Shown: positions 11,069-49,905 of the stretch, in pieces | Position numbering within the stretch: position 1 is the first letter of the stretch | Layout of the letters: each line of letters starts with the position of its first letter | Assembly: GCF_013343295.1 (NCBI RefSeq) | Contig: NZ_CP049074.1 | Coordinates: 1,097,501-1,161,500 of the forward strand | Direction: 5' to 3' | Source: Metallosphaera tengchongensis | Lineage (GTDB): Archaea; Thermoproteota; Thermoprotei_A; Sulfolobales; Sulfolobaceae | DNA length: 64,000 bases | The notes under the pieces: model-generated | What the model saw: the letters and a program-made list of their open reading frames with translations, nothing else | Database searches by the model: none | What the model was told of the DNA's origin: nothing | Program-made: the position numbers and the translations under genes

Positions 11069-11899
11069 ATGAAAGAAAAGCTAGTGGAGGCAAAGATTGT
11101 TGATTACGGAAAACTCAAGCAAATATATAGTGATATCATGTATTATATTGAATATTCGAAAGCTCTTGAAAAGTCTGGAGTAAAGACGAAGCCTTCTCCA
11201 CCCCCATATCTAAAGGAGATGAACGTCATACTGAGCAAGCCTAGACTAGGGCCTGTGAAACTCATAGGAGACGGACCTTCGTTCAGACTGGAGAAACTGA
11301 ACGCAGTTGTGGAGTCAGAAGAATACGGAAAGCCCATTTACGCATTGGTGGATTTCACCAACGGGATTAAAGTATTTTTAGCCTATCAATTTGACGACCC
11401 AATAGTAGGAATTGACCTGGGGATAAGGCACATATTCACTGTAGTGGCTGTAGTGAGAGACGGAAAGGTGTACAAGAGTAAGTATATCGGTAGTAGCGGA
11501 ATATTCGACACGTTCACTAAGTACATGAGCGAGTCTCAGGGTCTCTCATACGTAGCTGAGATTAAATCGAAGGTTAGGGTAGCCATGAAAGAGCTAATTG
11601 CATTCCTAAATGAGATAAATCCGAAAATGGTAGCACTGGAAGATCTAAGACTTTACGATGCAAGAATTGGGAGAGGTCTGAAGATTATAGAGGACGAGCT
11701 TGAAAGGGAGCTCATGGAGAAAGGGATCAGGTTTAAGAGACTAGACCCTAGGAACACTTCAAAGGTGTGTTCCCACTGTGGTTACAAGAAGGGCGAAGTA
11801 CTTGGCTCTATCTTTGTATGTCCCGCTTGTGGATACAAGGTGGACAGGGACTTTAACGCTGCGTATAATCTGGCGTTGAAGTGTTATTATACATGTTAA
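11069..11899 (+). CDS. Compact TnpB-like RuvC protein, 276 aa
   Basis: The C-terminal two thirds form a split RuvC nuclease domain: VGIDLGIRH with D116, ALEDLRL with E191, a zinc ribbon C234-x2-C237...C251-x2-C254, and VDRDFNAAYN with D259/D261. All three acidic positions are kept, so a nuclease activity is plausible. The N-terminal recognition part is only about 110 residues and does not resemble the usual TnpB start; typical TnpB proteins have about 370-430 residues. No guide-RNA/right-end sequence follows: pepQ starts 25 bases after the stop. It may be a domesticated or N-terminally truncated gene. Confidence 0.72.
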   Translation: MKEKLVEAKIVDYGKLKQIYSDIMYYIEYSKALEKSGVKTKPSPPPYLKEMNVILSKPRLGPVKLIGDGPSFRLEKLNAVVESEEYGKPIYALVDFTNGIKVFLAYQFDDPIVGIDLGIRHIFTVVAVVRDGKVYKSKYIGSSGIFDTFTKYMSESQGLSYVAEIKSKVRVAMKELIAFLNEINPKMVALEDLRLYDARIGRGLKIIEDELERELMEKGIRFKRLDPRNTSKVCSHCGYKKGEVLGSIFVCPACGYKVDRDFNAAYNLALKCYYTC

Positions 11900-28289: not shown

Positions 28290-28405
28290 GCCGGGGTGGC
28301 CGAGCGGTCTAAGGCGGCACTATCGGTATACGATAGCGCTAGGGGCTGCAGTGGTTTCCTTCATGGAAACCCGTTATTTCGCGGGTTCAAATCCCGCCCC
28401 CGGCT
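28290..28405 (+). tRNA. tRNA-Cys (GCA) with two introns
   Basis: Acceptor GCCGGGG/CCCCGGC with discriminator U, as in Cys tRNAs, and T-arm GCGGG-TTCAAAT-CCCGC. A normal anticodon arm, stem GCGGG/CCCGT and loop CTGCAGA, appears only if two introns are removed: 28319-28342 (24 nt, in the anticodon stem between positions 28 and 29) and 28352-28368 (17 nt, between 37 and 38). The first has a good bulge-helix-bulge: bulges GCA and AGG around a GGCG/CGCT helix, with hairpin CTATCG/CGATAG beyond. The second junction is less regular. The mature tRNA would be 75 nt. Confidence 0.8.
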
Positions 28406-37129: not shown

Positions 37130-37555
37130 GTGGAGGCTAATACAGACGAGCTCAGGAAGTTCCTGGAGGGGAAAATCGCATCTCTAAAAAAGGAGCTAGA
37201 ATACTACGAATATCTTCTTAGCGTAATAGAGTCAGGTTACGTACCTAATTCAAGAGGAGGGAAAGTCAGTTTGGATTACATAAAGAACAGGAAAGGGGAG
37301 ATAATAGGAGAGATTTATTTCAGCCCTCCCTCAATGAAGATAATTGTGAAGAAAAAGGTAAACATGCCGAGAAGTTACATGAACGCATTGAGTAAGATTC
37401 TTGACGACAGCAAGGCAATTGACAAAATTGATTATAACATAGTGTTAGATAAGGAAGACCTGAAGGAGATTTCCATCAGTGGAGTCAAGGAGGAGCTCCT
37501 CTATAGTAGGTTAAAGGCTTCAGTCCAATCAATTCTCGAGAGAGCCTCCAGCTAA
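37130..37555 (+). CDS. Conserved hypothetical protein, 141 aa
   Basis: Residues 5-30 form a helix with coiled-coil character (DELRKFLEGKIASLKKELEY), followed by an alpha/beta region with basic strands (SMKIIVKKKVNMPRSYMN) and a C-terminal helix. No known domain is recognised. The GTG at 37130 is the only suitable start. The gene is convergent with and overlaps the 3' end of the cedB-like gene by 27 bases. A role with DNA import is possible only by proximity. Confidence 0.65.
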   Translation: MEANTDELRKFLEGKIASLKKELEYYEYLLSVIESGYVPNSRGGKVSLDYIKNRKGEIIGEIYFSPPSMKIIVKKKVNMPRSYMNALSKILDDSKAIDKIDYNIVLDKEDLKEISISGVKEELLYSRLKASVQSILERASS

Positions 37556-39376
37556 TCTCTTGTGGGAAACTAGGATAGGTCTAGGATCTCCTAGGAATCT
37601 AACCAACATTTCACCTCTACCCATAAATGTTAGCCTGTTCTCCACATCAGCGTCTAAGATATTCGAGTACCTTTTTACAATTCCGTTCCAGAATTCTTTG
37701 TCTCCGTTATTCATAAAGCACAAGACTCCGAAGTTCTCCATAAACACATCTGTGTTATTACCTAAATCTTGGATATTTTGAGTGGCCATCAGTAGGGATA
37801 TACCGTGACCTCTCCCCCTTTTAATTAGATCTCCTATGATACCGTAGTCTTCCTCGTCCCGAAGGACTGACCAAGCTTCATCCACGACGAGTGCTATCCT
37901 CAGGCCTTGATCCACGGACAGAGAGTACTTGGAATATAACATCGAAATGAAAGAGTACGTTACAAATCTACGGAGCGTCTCGTCCTTCAGCTGCGTCAGA
38001 TCGACTACGTTAATGCCATTATAGACAGCATCTATCAAGGAGGGCCCATCATTTTCAAATATCTTTATTATTTCTATGACCCTTCTTAACGAGAATCTCT
38101 CGCTTATTTCCGGGTCTTCCAGGAGGACGTCCCAAGAAACTCTACTTTTCTCTTTGCTACTTACGAGTCTGTTAAGGGATGTGAATAATATGGCTCTCTC
38201 TTCCCTGTTGAGCCTGAAAGTCACTCCAATAACCTTCTCTAGGAATAGTGGTTTCACGGAGGGGGGTACGTAAGGAGAGTTGAGTAGATTCAGGGAAAGA
38301 AAGAACGGATTCAGTACTCTAAAGTTGTAACCATATTTTTTGAGACGAGATTTAATATCCCCCTTCGAATCAAAGAACAGAATGGGAATCCTGTAATTAA
38401 AGCTCATCATTATCCCCAACGAAATCAGGAACTCAGTTTTTCCTGATCCTGTGGGACCTATGACCAAGAGGTGCCCGTTCTCCATCGCTTCCACGTTCCA
38501 AAATACCGAGGTGTTTCGGGTCATGTCCTTTCCCAAATATATTCCTTTGCTCCACATCTCAATTTTAGGGGTTTTATCAACGGAGAATGGAGTAATGAAA
38601 GGAATTTGGGAAGGGAATCCTTCTCTCCTTAGCGAATAGGTTGAGAGATTAATGATCTCCTCTATTTCCCTAACGTCAGCAAATCTCGATTTAATGCCTA
38701 AACTTTCAAGCCCCCTCATCACTACCTCTCCAAGACTTCTGGCCTCCTCCTTACTCTTCCCGTGGATAACTAGGACTAATTGATAAGAAAAGGGTCTTTC
38801 TCCTTCATCTATTTTTGAAAGCAGTGACTGTAGTAACTCCATCTCCTTTTTTGCTCTAGCGTTCGAAGGATCGTTCTCCACTATGATTCTTAGATTTTGT
38901 ATTTTATTTAGGACTTTGTTAGTATATGATCGTAGGTCTATGTATCTTTTTCTCAAAATCATATCAATTTGTGTCCCTACATTTGTCACTTTATGAAATG
39001 CATTAATTGAAGTTTTCAAGGAGCTCTCAGACATATCCCTATAATCAAAGGGAACGTCCTCTACAACAATGAAGCTCATGGACTCCTTATCTGTTATTAG
39101 GGTGCCCTTCTCTATGGACCTATTCTGCAGACGTTTTACCCTAAACTGTGATAGAGATATACCGGAGAGTTTAATGTTTCCTGTTGCAATCATTAGAATA
39201 AATATTAAAATTAAAATAAGAATAAATAATAGATTTCTAAAGATTATTGTTAGTAAAATAGGAAGCAGGAGCATGACGTAAGGTGCGTATCTTTCAAGAT
39301 CCATGAACTTAGTGAAAACTTTAAAGTACCACTCTTTAGCGATAGTTTTCCTTGCCAGGAGGGATTTGGGTTTCAT
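37529..39376 (-). CDS. cedB: Membrane-anchored VirB4/HerA-type ATPase, CedB-like DNA import protein
   Basis: A 615-residue protein. Residues about 33-64 form a hydrophobic hairpin that anchors it in the membrane. The ATPase domain has Walker A GPTGSGKT at 307-314, FFDSKGD at 334-340, Walker B LVVDEAW at 496-502 and the conserved MATQNIQDL segment of VirB4/HerA/TraD proteins. This size and plan match CedB, the ATPase of the crenarchaeal Ced system that imports chromosomal DNA after UV-induced cell aggregation. The channel proteins CedA/CedA1/CedA2 are not in the window, as expected from other Sulfolobales where they are at another locus. Confidence 0.78.
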   Translation of the reverse strand: MKPKSLLARKTIAKEWYFKVFTKFMDLERYAPYVMLLLPILLTIIFRNLLFILILILIFILMIATGNIKLSGISLSQFRVKRLQNRSIEKGTLITDKESMSFIVVEDVPFDYRDMSESSLKTSINAFHKVTNVGTQIDMILRKRYIDLRSYTNKVLNKIQNLRIIVENDPSNARAKKEMELLQSLLSKIDEGERPFSYQLVLVIHGKSKEEARSLGEVVMRGLESLGIKSRFADVREIEEIINLSTYSLRREGFPSQIPFITPFSVDKTPKIEMWSKGIYLGKDMTRNTSVFWNVEAMENGHLLVIGPTGSGKTEFLISLGIMMSFNYRIPILFFDSKGDIKSRLKKYGYNFRVLNPFFLSLNLLNSPYVPPSVKPLFLEKVIGVTFRLNREERAILFTSLNRLVSSKEKSRVSWDVLLEDPEISERFSLRRVIEIIKIFENDGPSLIDAVYNGINVVDLTQLKDETLRRFVTYSFISMLYSKYSLSVDQGLRIALVVDEAWSVLRDEEDYGIIGDLIKRGRGHGISLLMATQNIQDLGNNTDVFMENFGVLCFMNNGDKEFWNGIVKRYSNILDADVENRLTFMGRGEMLVRFLGDPRPILVSHKRLAGGSLEN

Positions 39377-39391
39377 CGGATCTCATATAAC

Positions 39392-39590
39392 TTGATATCG
39401 ACCCTCAACCCTTGGGCTTCACGGGAGTCGAGCGAGCCTTCCTTCACCCTCCTCCACCCCATTAGCGGGGTAACCCCGACCCACCTAGATGGGATACCGT
39501 CTAAGTGGGGGAACCCGCACATCTTGGGCTGTCCATATCCGAGCCTTTCGGGATATATACCCACATCCGGCATTATGCGGAACCGTTGAT
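39392..39590. ncRNA. GC-rich structured region upstream of the cedB-like gene, candidate noncoding RNA
   Basis: About 195 bases are much richer in GC than either flank and full of complementary segments: CCCACCTAGAT/GTCTAAGTGGG, CGGGGT/ACCCCG, ATATCC/GGATAT and TCGACCC/GGGAGTCGA. Strand is unclear. On the minus strand TTTATATAAC at 39597-39606 is a strong TATA element just before it; on the plus strand CATATAACTT near 39385 could serve. It could be a stand-alone RNA, a long structured leader of cedB, or an insertion-element end. I could not match it to SRP RNA or RNase P RNA. The 66-codon ORF across it is not convincing. Confidence 0.5.
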
Positions 39591-39721
39591 ATGGAGTTAT
39601 ATAAACTTAATCCTCTCACTGAAACTGCTTACCACGGCATTTTTCTCCAGCCTTAAATTTAGGTCGGTAATATCAAATGAGGTAATTTAAATTCGCTCCA
39701 TTTTCCAATGAGATAAATGAC

Positions 39722-40033
39722 ATGAGCACTATAAGGGTTATCTTTGGTTTGAACGGTGATCGAGGTATACTTCCTGTGATATATGAGGTGACTAGGTCTA
39801 CTGGATTTAAGGACAAGTTTAACATCAAGGTAGACGTTGATCTACTTTATGACTCGCTTTACCCTTCTATAGAGATAGATGGAGTTAAGGTTACATTCGA
39901 CTACTTGTCTGATGAGGACGCAAGGGAGCAGGTAAAGAGACTAATAAAGGGAGAGCTACCAACCCAGCGCTCACCCAAGGTCTCTTCTCCTAGAGATGAC
40001 AGGATATTTTCCGACGGCGTTTTAGCATCCTAA
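39722..40033 (+). CDS. Hypothetical protein, 103 aa
   Basis: A short acidic protein. The N-terminal 85 residues alternate strands and helices (STIRVIFGLNGDRGILPVIY, KVDVDLLYDSLYPSIEIDG, VTFDYLSDEDAREQVKRLI), like a small thioredoxin-like or ferredoxin-like fold but without a C-x-x-C pair. The tail is polar. It sits 15 bases before the FAD-type protein and is probably co-transcribed. No family recognised. Confidence 0.6.
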   Translation: MSTIRVIFGLNGDRGILPVIYEVTRSTGFKDKFNIKVDVDLLYDSLYPSIEIDGVKVTFDYLSDEDAREQVKRLIKGELPTQRSPKVSSPRDDRIFSDGVLAS

Positions 40034-46589: not shown

Positions 46590-47915
46590 ACACGCATGCC
46601 TCTATCTAGAGGCCAAAGATCCAAAAGTCTGGAGTAATTAAGATGGGATTGCTGGCTTCCTCCATGCCATAAATGGCAAGGGTTCCCCTCACCGGTCCGG
46701 ATTTACATCTCTCATGTGGGGGGCAGTCAAGAGGCTCAGAGAACACCTCCCATAAAGGTTCATAATTGCGATTACATCATGGTCGTTCTCATAACCACAA
46801 TCAACACAATGATAATATCTATGGGCAACCTCTTCCATTTCTTTCCCACACTTTAGGCAATGGATATAGGAGTGATGGGGTCAACGTAGACTACCTTAAG
46901 CCCGTGTTTCTTTGCTTGCTACTCAATGCAGTATTGTATCCTACGATACTGCATGAGATAAAGTCTGTCCCTAAACTCAAAGGTAGCTTTTTTACTCTCT
47001 TGATGAGGTTGTTGAGGTCTTCAAGGAAGATGGCAGAGACGTTAAACGACTTAGCTACTTTGACTACCCTCTTCCCAACTTTTTTGCTAAATCTTCCAGG
47101 ATGTCCCTAGCCTTCTGGTAGTACGACCTTATCCTGTTAAGGGTTCTGTCGTTCTCTTTCCACTTCTTTTCATGCTTCTTCTGTAGTCTCTAGGCTAAGC
47201 TCTTGTAGTGGTGGACGTCTTCTAATCTGGTTGGTATCCTAACGTACTTTTCGTGGTCTTTTCCAACTACGAGTTCAGCCATGTTTATGTCGACTGCAAC
47301 TCCATCCTTAACTCCTGGTCCTTTCCAGTCTTTGAGGATTGGAATCTTTAGGTACGCGTTGCCGTCCCTTAGCAACAAACTAGCCTCTCTCATTTCTCAA
47401 CCCTTGTAGGAAAAACAGATTCCTTGAGTATCCTAATATTGATAGTTCGCCAACTCCTGCTATCCTTACGCTCATTTTATCGAAGTCAGTTGAAAACGAT
47501 AGGGTTGGGGTTTTAAGCATACAGACACGTTGCGTAAACTTGGATACCTACCGCGTTTAAGGTTGTTTAAACGACCCTTGTATACTGCCATAGCATCCCT
47601 ATAGCAGTCTTGGGCGACTTTAGGGGATAGATTAAACATTTGCCTTAGCGTTTCGTAAGTTACCCTTATGAGTGTCTTTTAACTACATGTTGGTCTGTTC
47701 TCTCTTAACCAGTCGAGGACTAAACGTAGACCTTTTCCATACCTTTCAGTTAGGGACAGCAGAGAGGTGGTGGGGAAACCCTACATTGGAACTGTAGCTC
47801 TGATTTTGTTCCCACTCTTTTTAGCCCATCTGCCCATACGTATAGAAATGGAGGAAAGAGGTTTTATATCCTCTGTCATCCCCGCCCTAAAGGGCAGGGC
47901 TTTCCTCAACTTTGT
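46590..47915 (-). mobile_element. tnpB element remnant B (IS1341-like, second family)
   Basis: A full-length but decayed stand-alone tnpB element on the minus strand. Its left end is a hairpin CCCTGCCCTTTAGGGCGGGG at about 47878-47900 upstream of the tnpB start; the right end, near 46660-46740, has CCCTTGCCATTTATGGCATGG. No tnpA is present. The TnpB type differs from elements A, C and D. Confidence 0.7.
46760..47830 (-). pseudogene. tnpB pseudogene of element B
   Basis: In order on the minus strand: an N-terminal segment SLTERYGKGLRLVLDWLREN, then VYKGRLNNLKRGRYPSL, then MREASLLLRDGNAYLKIP and VAVDINMAELVVGKDHEKYV (RuvC-I with its aspartate), IRSYYQKARDILEDLAKKVG, and FLEDLNNLIKRVK (RuvC-II with Glu). 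Frame changes and stops occur after each block (for example YKSLA*, TCS*), and the zinc-ribbon part is degraded. Not translatable as one protein. Confidence 0.78.
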
Positions 47916-48639: not shown

Positions 48640-49905
48640 TACCGGAGGGTAGCGTCCGTACAACTGTAGTAAGGCTTTTCCCTAGTTGGGCGCAACAAAG
48701 GAAAAAAAGAAAGTTGGCAGATGAAACTGTGAGGCTATACAACGAGGTAAACTACGAGAGGATGCAACAGTTCTTCCAACAGAAGAGAGTAGACTTCAAG
48801 GGCACTTGGGATAAATTCTACGAGAAGCATAAGGGGATATTAGGTCCTGCTAATGCACAAGCTGTAGTGCAGAAGAACAACGAGGTTCGATCATCCTTTT
48901 TCTCCTCTCTGAAGGATAAGGTCAGCCTACCTTCCTTCGTCAAGCATGCCTCTCCACCAGGTTATTGGAAAGACAAGGGAAAGAGGAGGGTAATCCTCGT
49001 AGTTAGGCAAGACAGCTACGAGGATGATGAAGAGAAACATGTGCTAATTCTTAAGGACTGGAAGATGGAAATACCCTTTGCAGGGAGGTTGAGGTAGTCT
49101 GGCACACAAGGCAGGCTAGAGATACACATAATTGGCGCAAGTCCTATGCTTACATCCTAGTTGACTAGGCAGAGTTACAACAAAGGAGTCCTGTAAGCCC
49201 ATGAAGGACTCCATGACCATTCACTGTGAGAGGGACAAAATACAGCTAGCTACACCTAAAGGCTAGGGGTAGCCTCAATTGACCTGGGCATCAACATGCT
49301 AGCAATAGTCACCGTAGACGACGGAAACGTCTTGTTCCACTATGCCTCTCTCGTTAAGAGCGACTACTTCCACTTGCAAAAGAAGATAGCAGGACTAGAC
49401 AGGCTAAAGGCTGAGGCAGAGGGAGTCCAAGAAACAGAAGCTAGGGAAGAAGTTCTGAATGAAAGGGTCTCTAAGAAGCTCCACCGCAGGCTTCTTCACT
49501 ATTACAGGTCTTTAGCTTCCCACCTTGCTAAGACGTTATGGCAATGAGGCGTTTCAACCGTTTGCTTTGGCTACCCTCACTCCATCTCCCAAGACAAGGG
49601 TAACAAGTTTACCGTGAACATCTGGTCTTACCGACTAATTGAGGCAATCACGTTCAAGCTCTACGAGTATGGTATAGAGACATACTTAACAATTAAGTAC
49701 AACACTTCACGTCTCTGTGCTTTCCATAAAGTCGTCGTTGTGAGAAAGTCTAGGGGAGTCGTCAGCTGTCCTTTAGCTCATAGACTGCACAGCGACGTTA
49801 ACGGTGCTCTCAACATAATGAAGCTGAGGGTAAAGAGAGTTGTAAATATGTTGAAAAGACCACTTTCCTTTATAGTCTCATCTAGCGGTGTAACTCCCGT
49901 AGATG
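48640..49905 (+). pseudogene. tnpB pseudogene of element C
   Basis: Pieces of one TnpB in order: SVRTTVVRLFP, a frameshift, ADETVRLYNEVNYERMQQFF to EIPFAGRLR (48714-49097), a broken stretch, SIDLGINMLAIVTVDDG with the RuvC-I aspartate (about 49280-49547), KKLHRRLLHYYRSLASHLAK, then NIWSYRLIEAITFKLYEYG and SCPLAHRLHSDVNGALNIM with the RuvC-III aspartate. The zinc ribbon is reduced. At least four frame interruptions. The last segment is in frame with the downstream uridylyltransferase, creating a misleading long ORF from 49614. Confidence 0.82.

Follow-up and report, generated by a model that had tools for sequence, protein, structure and literature searches.

The window, a 64,000-nucleotide stretch of the Metallosphaera tengchongensis genome whose first letter is position 1 in all coordinates below, carries the gene for CedB (NF041017 equivalog; 857 bits, cut-off 700; residues 30–608) on the minus strand and a divergent neighbour on the plus strand, with a GC-rich patch lying between them. 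The patch (39392–39590) has a GC content of 56.8%, compared to a window mean of 42.8% (199-bp windows; s.d., 4.2%), and the 199-bp windows at or above this level, 0.03% of the total, all fall within a single run (39353–39600). The GC-rich, self-complementary stretch described in an earlier note on this DNA is thus real, and is the sole stretch of its length with such a GC content in the window. For both strands of the patch, the predicted fold is more stable than those of dinucleotide shuffles (z = -2.3 for the minus strand and, slightly stronger, -3.1 for the plus strand), and folding alone therefore leaves the strand undecided. The patch is the middle of a larger, repeated feature of 278 bp on the minus strand (39361–39638), one end of which overlaps the beginning of cedB as predicted.

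37529–39304, minus strand: cedB, with its likely native start at Met25 of the 615-aa frame, given that NF041017 starts at residue 30 and given the starts in relatives.
39361–39638, minus strand: the whole element, probably IS607-derived and non-autonomous, with sharp common ends (5' end GCCGTGGTAAGCAG at 39638, 3' end GATGAAACCCAAATCCC at 39361).
39722–40033, plus strand: the divergent neighbour gene, kept beside cedB in relatives without the element.

A search of the genome (2.18 Mb, one contig) with 39370–39640 as the query returned 42 matches at E ≤ 1e-3, many of which spanned the query in full; several were 85–93% identical across the whole of it and ended sharply at common points; the ends at 39638 and 39361 were set by extending the comparison of copies on both sides. 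Altogether, about 40 copies or fragments are present, including at least 17 full-length copies, and 17 full-length copies have the same deleted form and belong to at least two sequence types. Matches to the repeat occurred in 18 of 60 relatives, all from the same family, while IS607 TnpA genes were present in 36 of the 60. One genome from another genus (G010; loci L147–L158) contains more than ten shrunken gene-less copies, with no IS607 TnpA and with the cognate TnpB only as fragments, and in this genome the element family survives without helpers, orphaned. Elsewhere, a left end with a 15-bp tandem duplication (TGAGAGTATTAAGCC twice) was seen at L041:801–850, and L075 holds the same 3' part twice, at a spacing of about 1.27 kb and each time behind the same upstream sequence, suggesting a segmental repeat.

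The most probable identity of 39361–39638 (probability about 0.87) is a non-autonomous derivative of the IS607 family that carries an omega-RNA region. A full element at another locus (L139) encodes a serine-recombinase TnpA and a 434-aa TnpB and has the matching right end. Its TnpA, and that of L143, match the IS607 model NF033518 (223 and 187 bits, respectively; cut-off 110) as well as the Pfam Resolvase and MerR/HTH_17 families, while its TnpB matches NF040570 (124 bits; cut-off 100), PF07282 and PF01385. Two further intact TnpBs were found (L140 and L141), and no Y1 transposase was found in the genome. The serine TnpA with a MerR-type N-terminal HTH by which IS607 is recognised is encoded by the autonomous partner and not by the window copy, which lacks tnpA and most of tnpB and keeps the left end with the promoter region, the tnpB 3' end, and the right end. 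In order, the window copy consists of a left end of about 53 bp, a short piece of the tnpB zinc finger, and the last 50 tnpB codons with the right end. Over 50 aa, what is left of the reading frame shares 90% identity with the C-terminus of the L140 TnpB. The minus-strand TATA element that had been reported just before the patch is confirmed (TTTATATAAC, 39605–39596) and belongs to the left end. At L143 (G000 479000–482500), a tnpA that has a left end of its own lies about 0.3 kb ahead of a complete gene-less copy.

39586–39638, minus strand: left end, about 53 bp, common to the autonomous IS607 copies, with the CC core dinucleotide at 39636–39637.
39596–39605, minus strand: TATA box TTTATATAAC within the left end, at the position that it also occupies ahead of tnpA in intact elements; putative promoter.
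39361–39378, minus strand: right end CGATGAAACCCAAATCCC, the last conserved bases, in which the tnpB stop (39373–39375) overlaps the ATG of the long cedB frame (39374–39376).

The junctions of the copies follow one rule. Clean copies start with NCC, where N is preferentially G, and finish with AAACCCC; CC stands at the left junction in nearly all of them, and a G precedes it in most (only copies starting NCCGT...GCAGTT were counted, excluding chance left-end matches). Neither terminal inverted repeats nor target duplications were found at the junctions of the copies, and an AT-rich motif such as TTTAA, looked for next to the left end at the same junctions, was not seen. An 18-bp imperfect inverted repeat is present but internal (39385–39402 with 39585–39602). 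The target of IS607 is (G)GG, with insertion occurring without duplication (PMC6188088), and the (G)CC junction is this published target read from the other strand. Two intact elements split host frames in a manner that fits a GCC target, a phosphoesterase-like frame for L141 (YEQAPA / LWDYAEEYTLFDNYF) and an ATPase-like frame for L139, both named here from sequence motifs only. In ISXfa1, the GGG motif serves as the TAM and a fixed right-flanking nucleotide is part of the scaffold (PMC10711439). Being gene-less and multicopy and having its ends in common with an autonomous element, the family can be described as MITE-like; judged from its copies, it would fall outside MITEs in the strict sense, as terminal inverted repeats and target duplications are absent.

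By comparison with intact elements, the retained GC-rich part sits where TnpB elements encode the omega (right-end) RNA, on the same strand as tnpB and overlapping both the 3' end of that gene and the right end of the element, and the flanks after ...AAACCCC vary copy by copy, as would a guide. The predicted structure comprises the following parts.

39534–39579, minus strand: 5' hairpin region, from the first tnpB zinc-finger codons (RCGYISRK), with a GGUCUUGCC/GGCAAGACC-type stem in tnpB copies that is weaker here.
39377–39525, minus strand: candidate omega-RNA core, coinciding with the tnpB 3' end; the remnant frame stops at 39373–39375.
39480–39509, minus strand: hairpin 1 (CCCACUUAGACGG/CCAUCUAGGUGGG), the most covarying helix.
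39467–39477, minus strand: hairpin GGGGUUACCCC; in a pseudoknot-like alternative, GGGUU pairs with AACCC close to the right end.
39368–39411, minus strand: 3' helices GGGYU/ARCCC and GGRUU/GAYCC, predicted to close the scaffold beside the guide.

RNAalifold applied to all 96 copies gave almost no structure, the set being too diverse, and a narrower set of 52 copies from this genome and its relatives was used. For these, a six-helix structure left 92.9% of cells paired, with 133 double-changed cells (shuffled, 54.7 ± 9.0; slid controls, ≤45), and the covariation score was 0.301, against 0.194 for the shuffles. As the shuffle control is inflated by related sequences, it is the slid control and the lineage-specific compensations that carry weight. 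Hairpin 1 varies in sequence between lineages while its pairing is kept, one pair of a 3' helix is C-G in 25 sequences and U-A in 20, and the second 3' helix also has compensatory changes. The covariation analysis in related genomes proposed in the earlier note thus brought out compensatory changes in relatives that carry tnpB; when only gene-less copies were considered, pairing (94.0%) did not differ significantly from shuffles (93.7%; 61 of 500). Of the gene-less copies, only 3 of 29 in this genome and none of 10 in G010 have a tnpB frame that stays open across the motif, yet most stems persist. Gene-less copies keep versions of the 5' hairpin, separated from the core by 15–26 nt compared to 80–81 nt in tnpB copies. 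Between the 5' hairpin and the RNA core, the gene-less L155, L164, L035, and L015 all lack about 60 nt when set against L060 and L056, a shortening that could be one old event or repeated trimming.

The same IS607 derivative could be an inert mini-transposon in which the RNA region is a passenger, its ends kept because transposition needs them, its copies young, and its omega-RNA part yielding no working guide RNA. This alternative is serious, though somewhat short of an even chance. It would account for the non-significant covariation within the gene-less copies and for a conservation that is greatest at the tips (0.94 right, 0.90 left) compared to the inside (0.67–0.85). It would also suit the orphan copies of G010: as that genome retains copies without TnpA or full-length cognate TnpB, the structure can persist where the RNA hardly works. 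What an inert element explains less readily is the manner in which the interior changed. Gene-less copies in several genomes dropped the coding linker of about 60 nt while the flanking hairpins were kept, hairpin 1 in G010 shrank symmetrically to CCCCACUGUGGG, and the interior that was retained lies far from the tips.

A second alternative, that the patch is a leader or riboregulator transcribed with cedB and controlling its expression, is improbable. The element is on the same strand as cedB, a TATA box lies upstream, and the long cedB frame begins inside the element at 39376, all of which would be expected of a leader. However, the element occurs in some 40 copies or fragments at unrelated places and in neither of two relatives does one lie upstream of cedB. 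In these relatives (L111 and L112, both Metallosphaera) the same divergent neighbour is present (54% and 51% identical), and cedB starts at the residue matching Met25 (window 39304); this start, like that of the NCBIfam CedB model, lies downstream of the element. The distance from the neighbour start to the first cedB codons is 174 and 175 bp in the two relatives compared to 455 bp here, a stretch that becomes 180 bp after the element is removed in silico. With the same neighbours around an empty locus in two relatives, the element is an insertion, 56 bp upstream of the native cedB start. The longer cedB frame opens with five codons of transposon sequence (39376 to 39361), its ATG being supplied by the element. 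The long cedB leader envisaged in the earlier note is accordingly not borne out, and nothing points to a control of DNA uptake. The insertion may affect cedB expression as a by-product, through an added read-through promoter and an alternative ATG, as the putative promoter of the element points at cedB. A candidate for a promoter of cedB itself, CTTTAAAG, is only about 18 nt upstream of the native cedB ATG, rather close for a leaderless start. The insertion accounts for the patch and is a caution both against taking it for a regulator of cedB and against annotating the cedB start at 39376.

Translation of the 66-aa minus-strand frame (39373–39573) as a small protein is very improbable: although this open frame shares 90% identity with the C-terminal tail of TnpB, the RuvC domain and the second half of the zinc finger are missing, the frame is broken in 26 of the 29 gene-less copies of this genome, and it has no match in Pfam or NCBIfam. 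A housekeeping RNA (SRP RNA or RNase P RNA) or other Rfam family, plausible at first sight for a GC-rich, structured stretch in a thermophile lineage, can practically be dismissed, as the sequence is multicopy and 39392–39590 has nothing in Rfam at E values up to 10 besides a 14-bit chance match. The Rfam check, which the earlier note had called for, thus returned no family for the window copy, and none was matched by three related elements. Its idea of a noncoding RNA holds for a structured, minus-strand, non-coding segment and fails for a unique host RNA, the segment being a dispersed transposon remnant; omega-RNA, one of the classes it had named, appears to be the right one.

For the IS607 derivative with its omega-RNA region, a route to function can be proposed. 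The left-end promoter would drive transcription starting near 39575, and the RNA would finish with a guide taken from the flanking host DNA on the cedB side (39360–39341).

39341–39360, minus strand: predicted guide TCCTGGCAAGGAAAACTATC, the first 20 nt past the right end, placed by analogy with other TnpB systems.

TnpA from the intact copies would act in trans to move the element into (G)CC sites. TnpB from the intact copies would take up the RNA and, after excision, cut the empty site consisting of (G)CC and the guide match, and repair from an element-bearing copy would then restore the element at the cut site. With up to 3 mismatches allowed, the guide matches the genome only at its own site, and no exact match was found in viral contigs; without a second genome target, only self-site targeting can be proposed. 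The lone match is consistent with transposon retention at the own site and gives no hint of regulation elsewhere. The odds that the omega-RNA of the window copy works are about even. A broader proposal, more tentative, is that the gene-less copies are dispersed, stand-alone genes for shortened omega-RNAs, each with its own guide, a scaffold about 60 nt shorter than the tnpB-linked form, and service in trans from a few intact TnpBs, forming a guide-only family that lives on an IS607 serine transposase and nuclease. Should the gene-less copies produce functional RNAs, they would serve as natural minimal scaffolds for archaeal IS607 TnpB and would allow a direct test of whether guide RNAs alone hold a transposon in place.

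Precedents exist for IS607 elements, for the right-end RNAs of TnpB, and for Sulfolobus elements without genes. PATE-like IS605-type gene-less elements combine a left end, a guide-RNA region, and a right end, with a transposase class different from that of IS607. The open-access literature searched yielded no gene-less family of IS607 origin in which the omega-RNA is retained and trimmed. IS607, IS1535, and ISC1926 (PMC6188088) resemble the window element in the lack of inverted repeats and target duplication, the GG/CC junction dinucleotide, and the serine TnpA, here in the intact partner. The right-end RNAs of TnpB (ISXfa1, PMC10711439; RAGATH-18 reRNAs, PMC11061315) are likewise structured RNAs at the tnpB 3' side that run into the flank. 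Compared to these elements and RNAs, the window copy lacks tnpA, retains only the tail of tnpB, has a scaffold that overlaps tnpB coding sequence, has no Rfam match, and is archaeal. The omega-RNA of SisTnpB1 in Sulfolobus islandicus, a member of the same archaeal family, is similarly TnpB-linked, with a conserved right end followed by a variable guide, but it belongs to the IS200/IS605 type and has TTTAA or TTTAT next to the left end, whereas the window element is of the IS607 type with (G)CC (PMC10640517). The Sulfolobus MITEs SM1–SM4 and SMN1 are also short, gene-less, multicopy, and moved by transposases in trans; as described, they have terminal inverted repeats, direct repeats, and the partners ISC1733 and ISC1058, while the window element has neither type of repeat and has an omega-RNA-like core (PMC3718332, PMC10969869).

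Further PF07282 (TnpB-type) matches occur elsewhere in the window (11696–11872, 46755–46880, and 49629–49817), apparently from different TnpB lineages. A 116-base Rfam tRNA match at 28290–28405, absent from the ARAGORN output, is probably an intron-containing tRNA gene.
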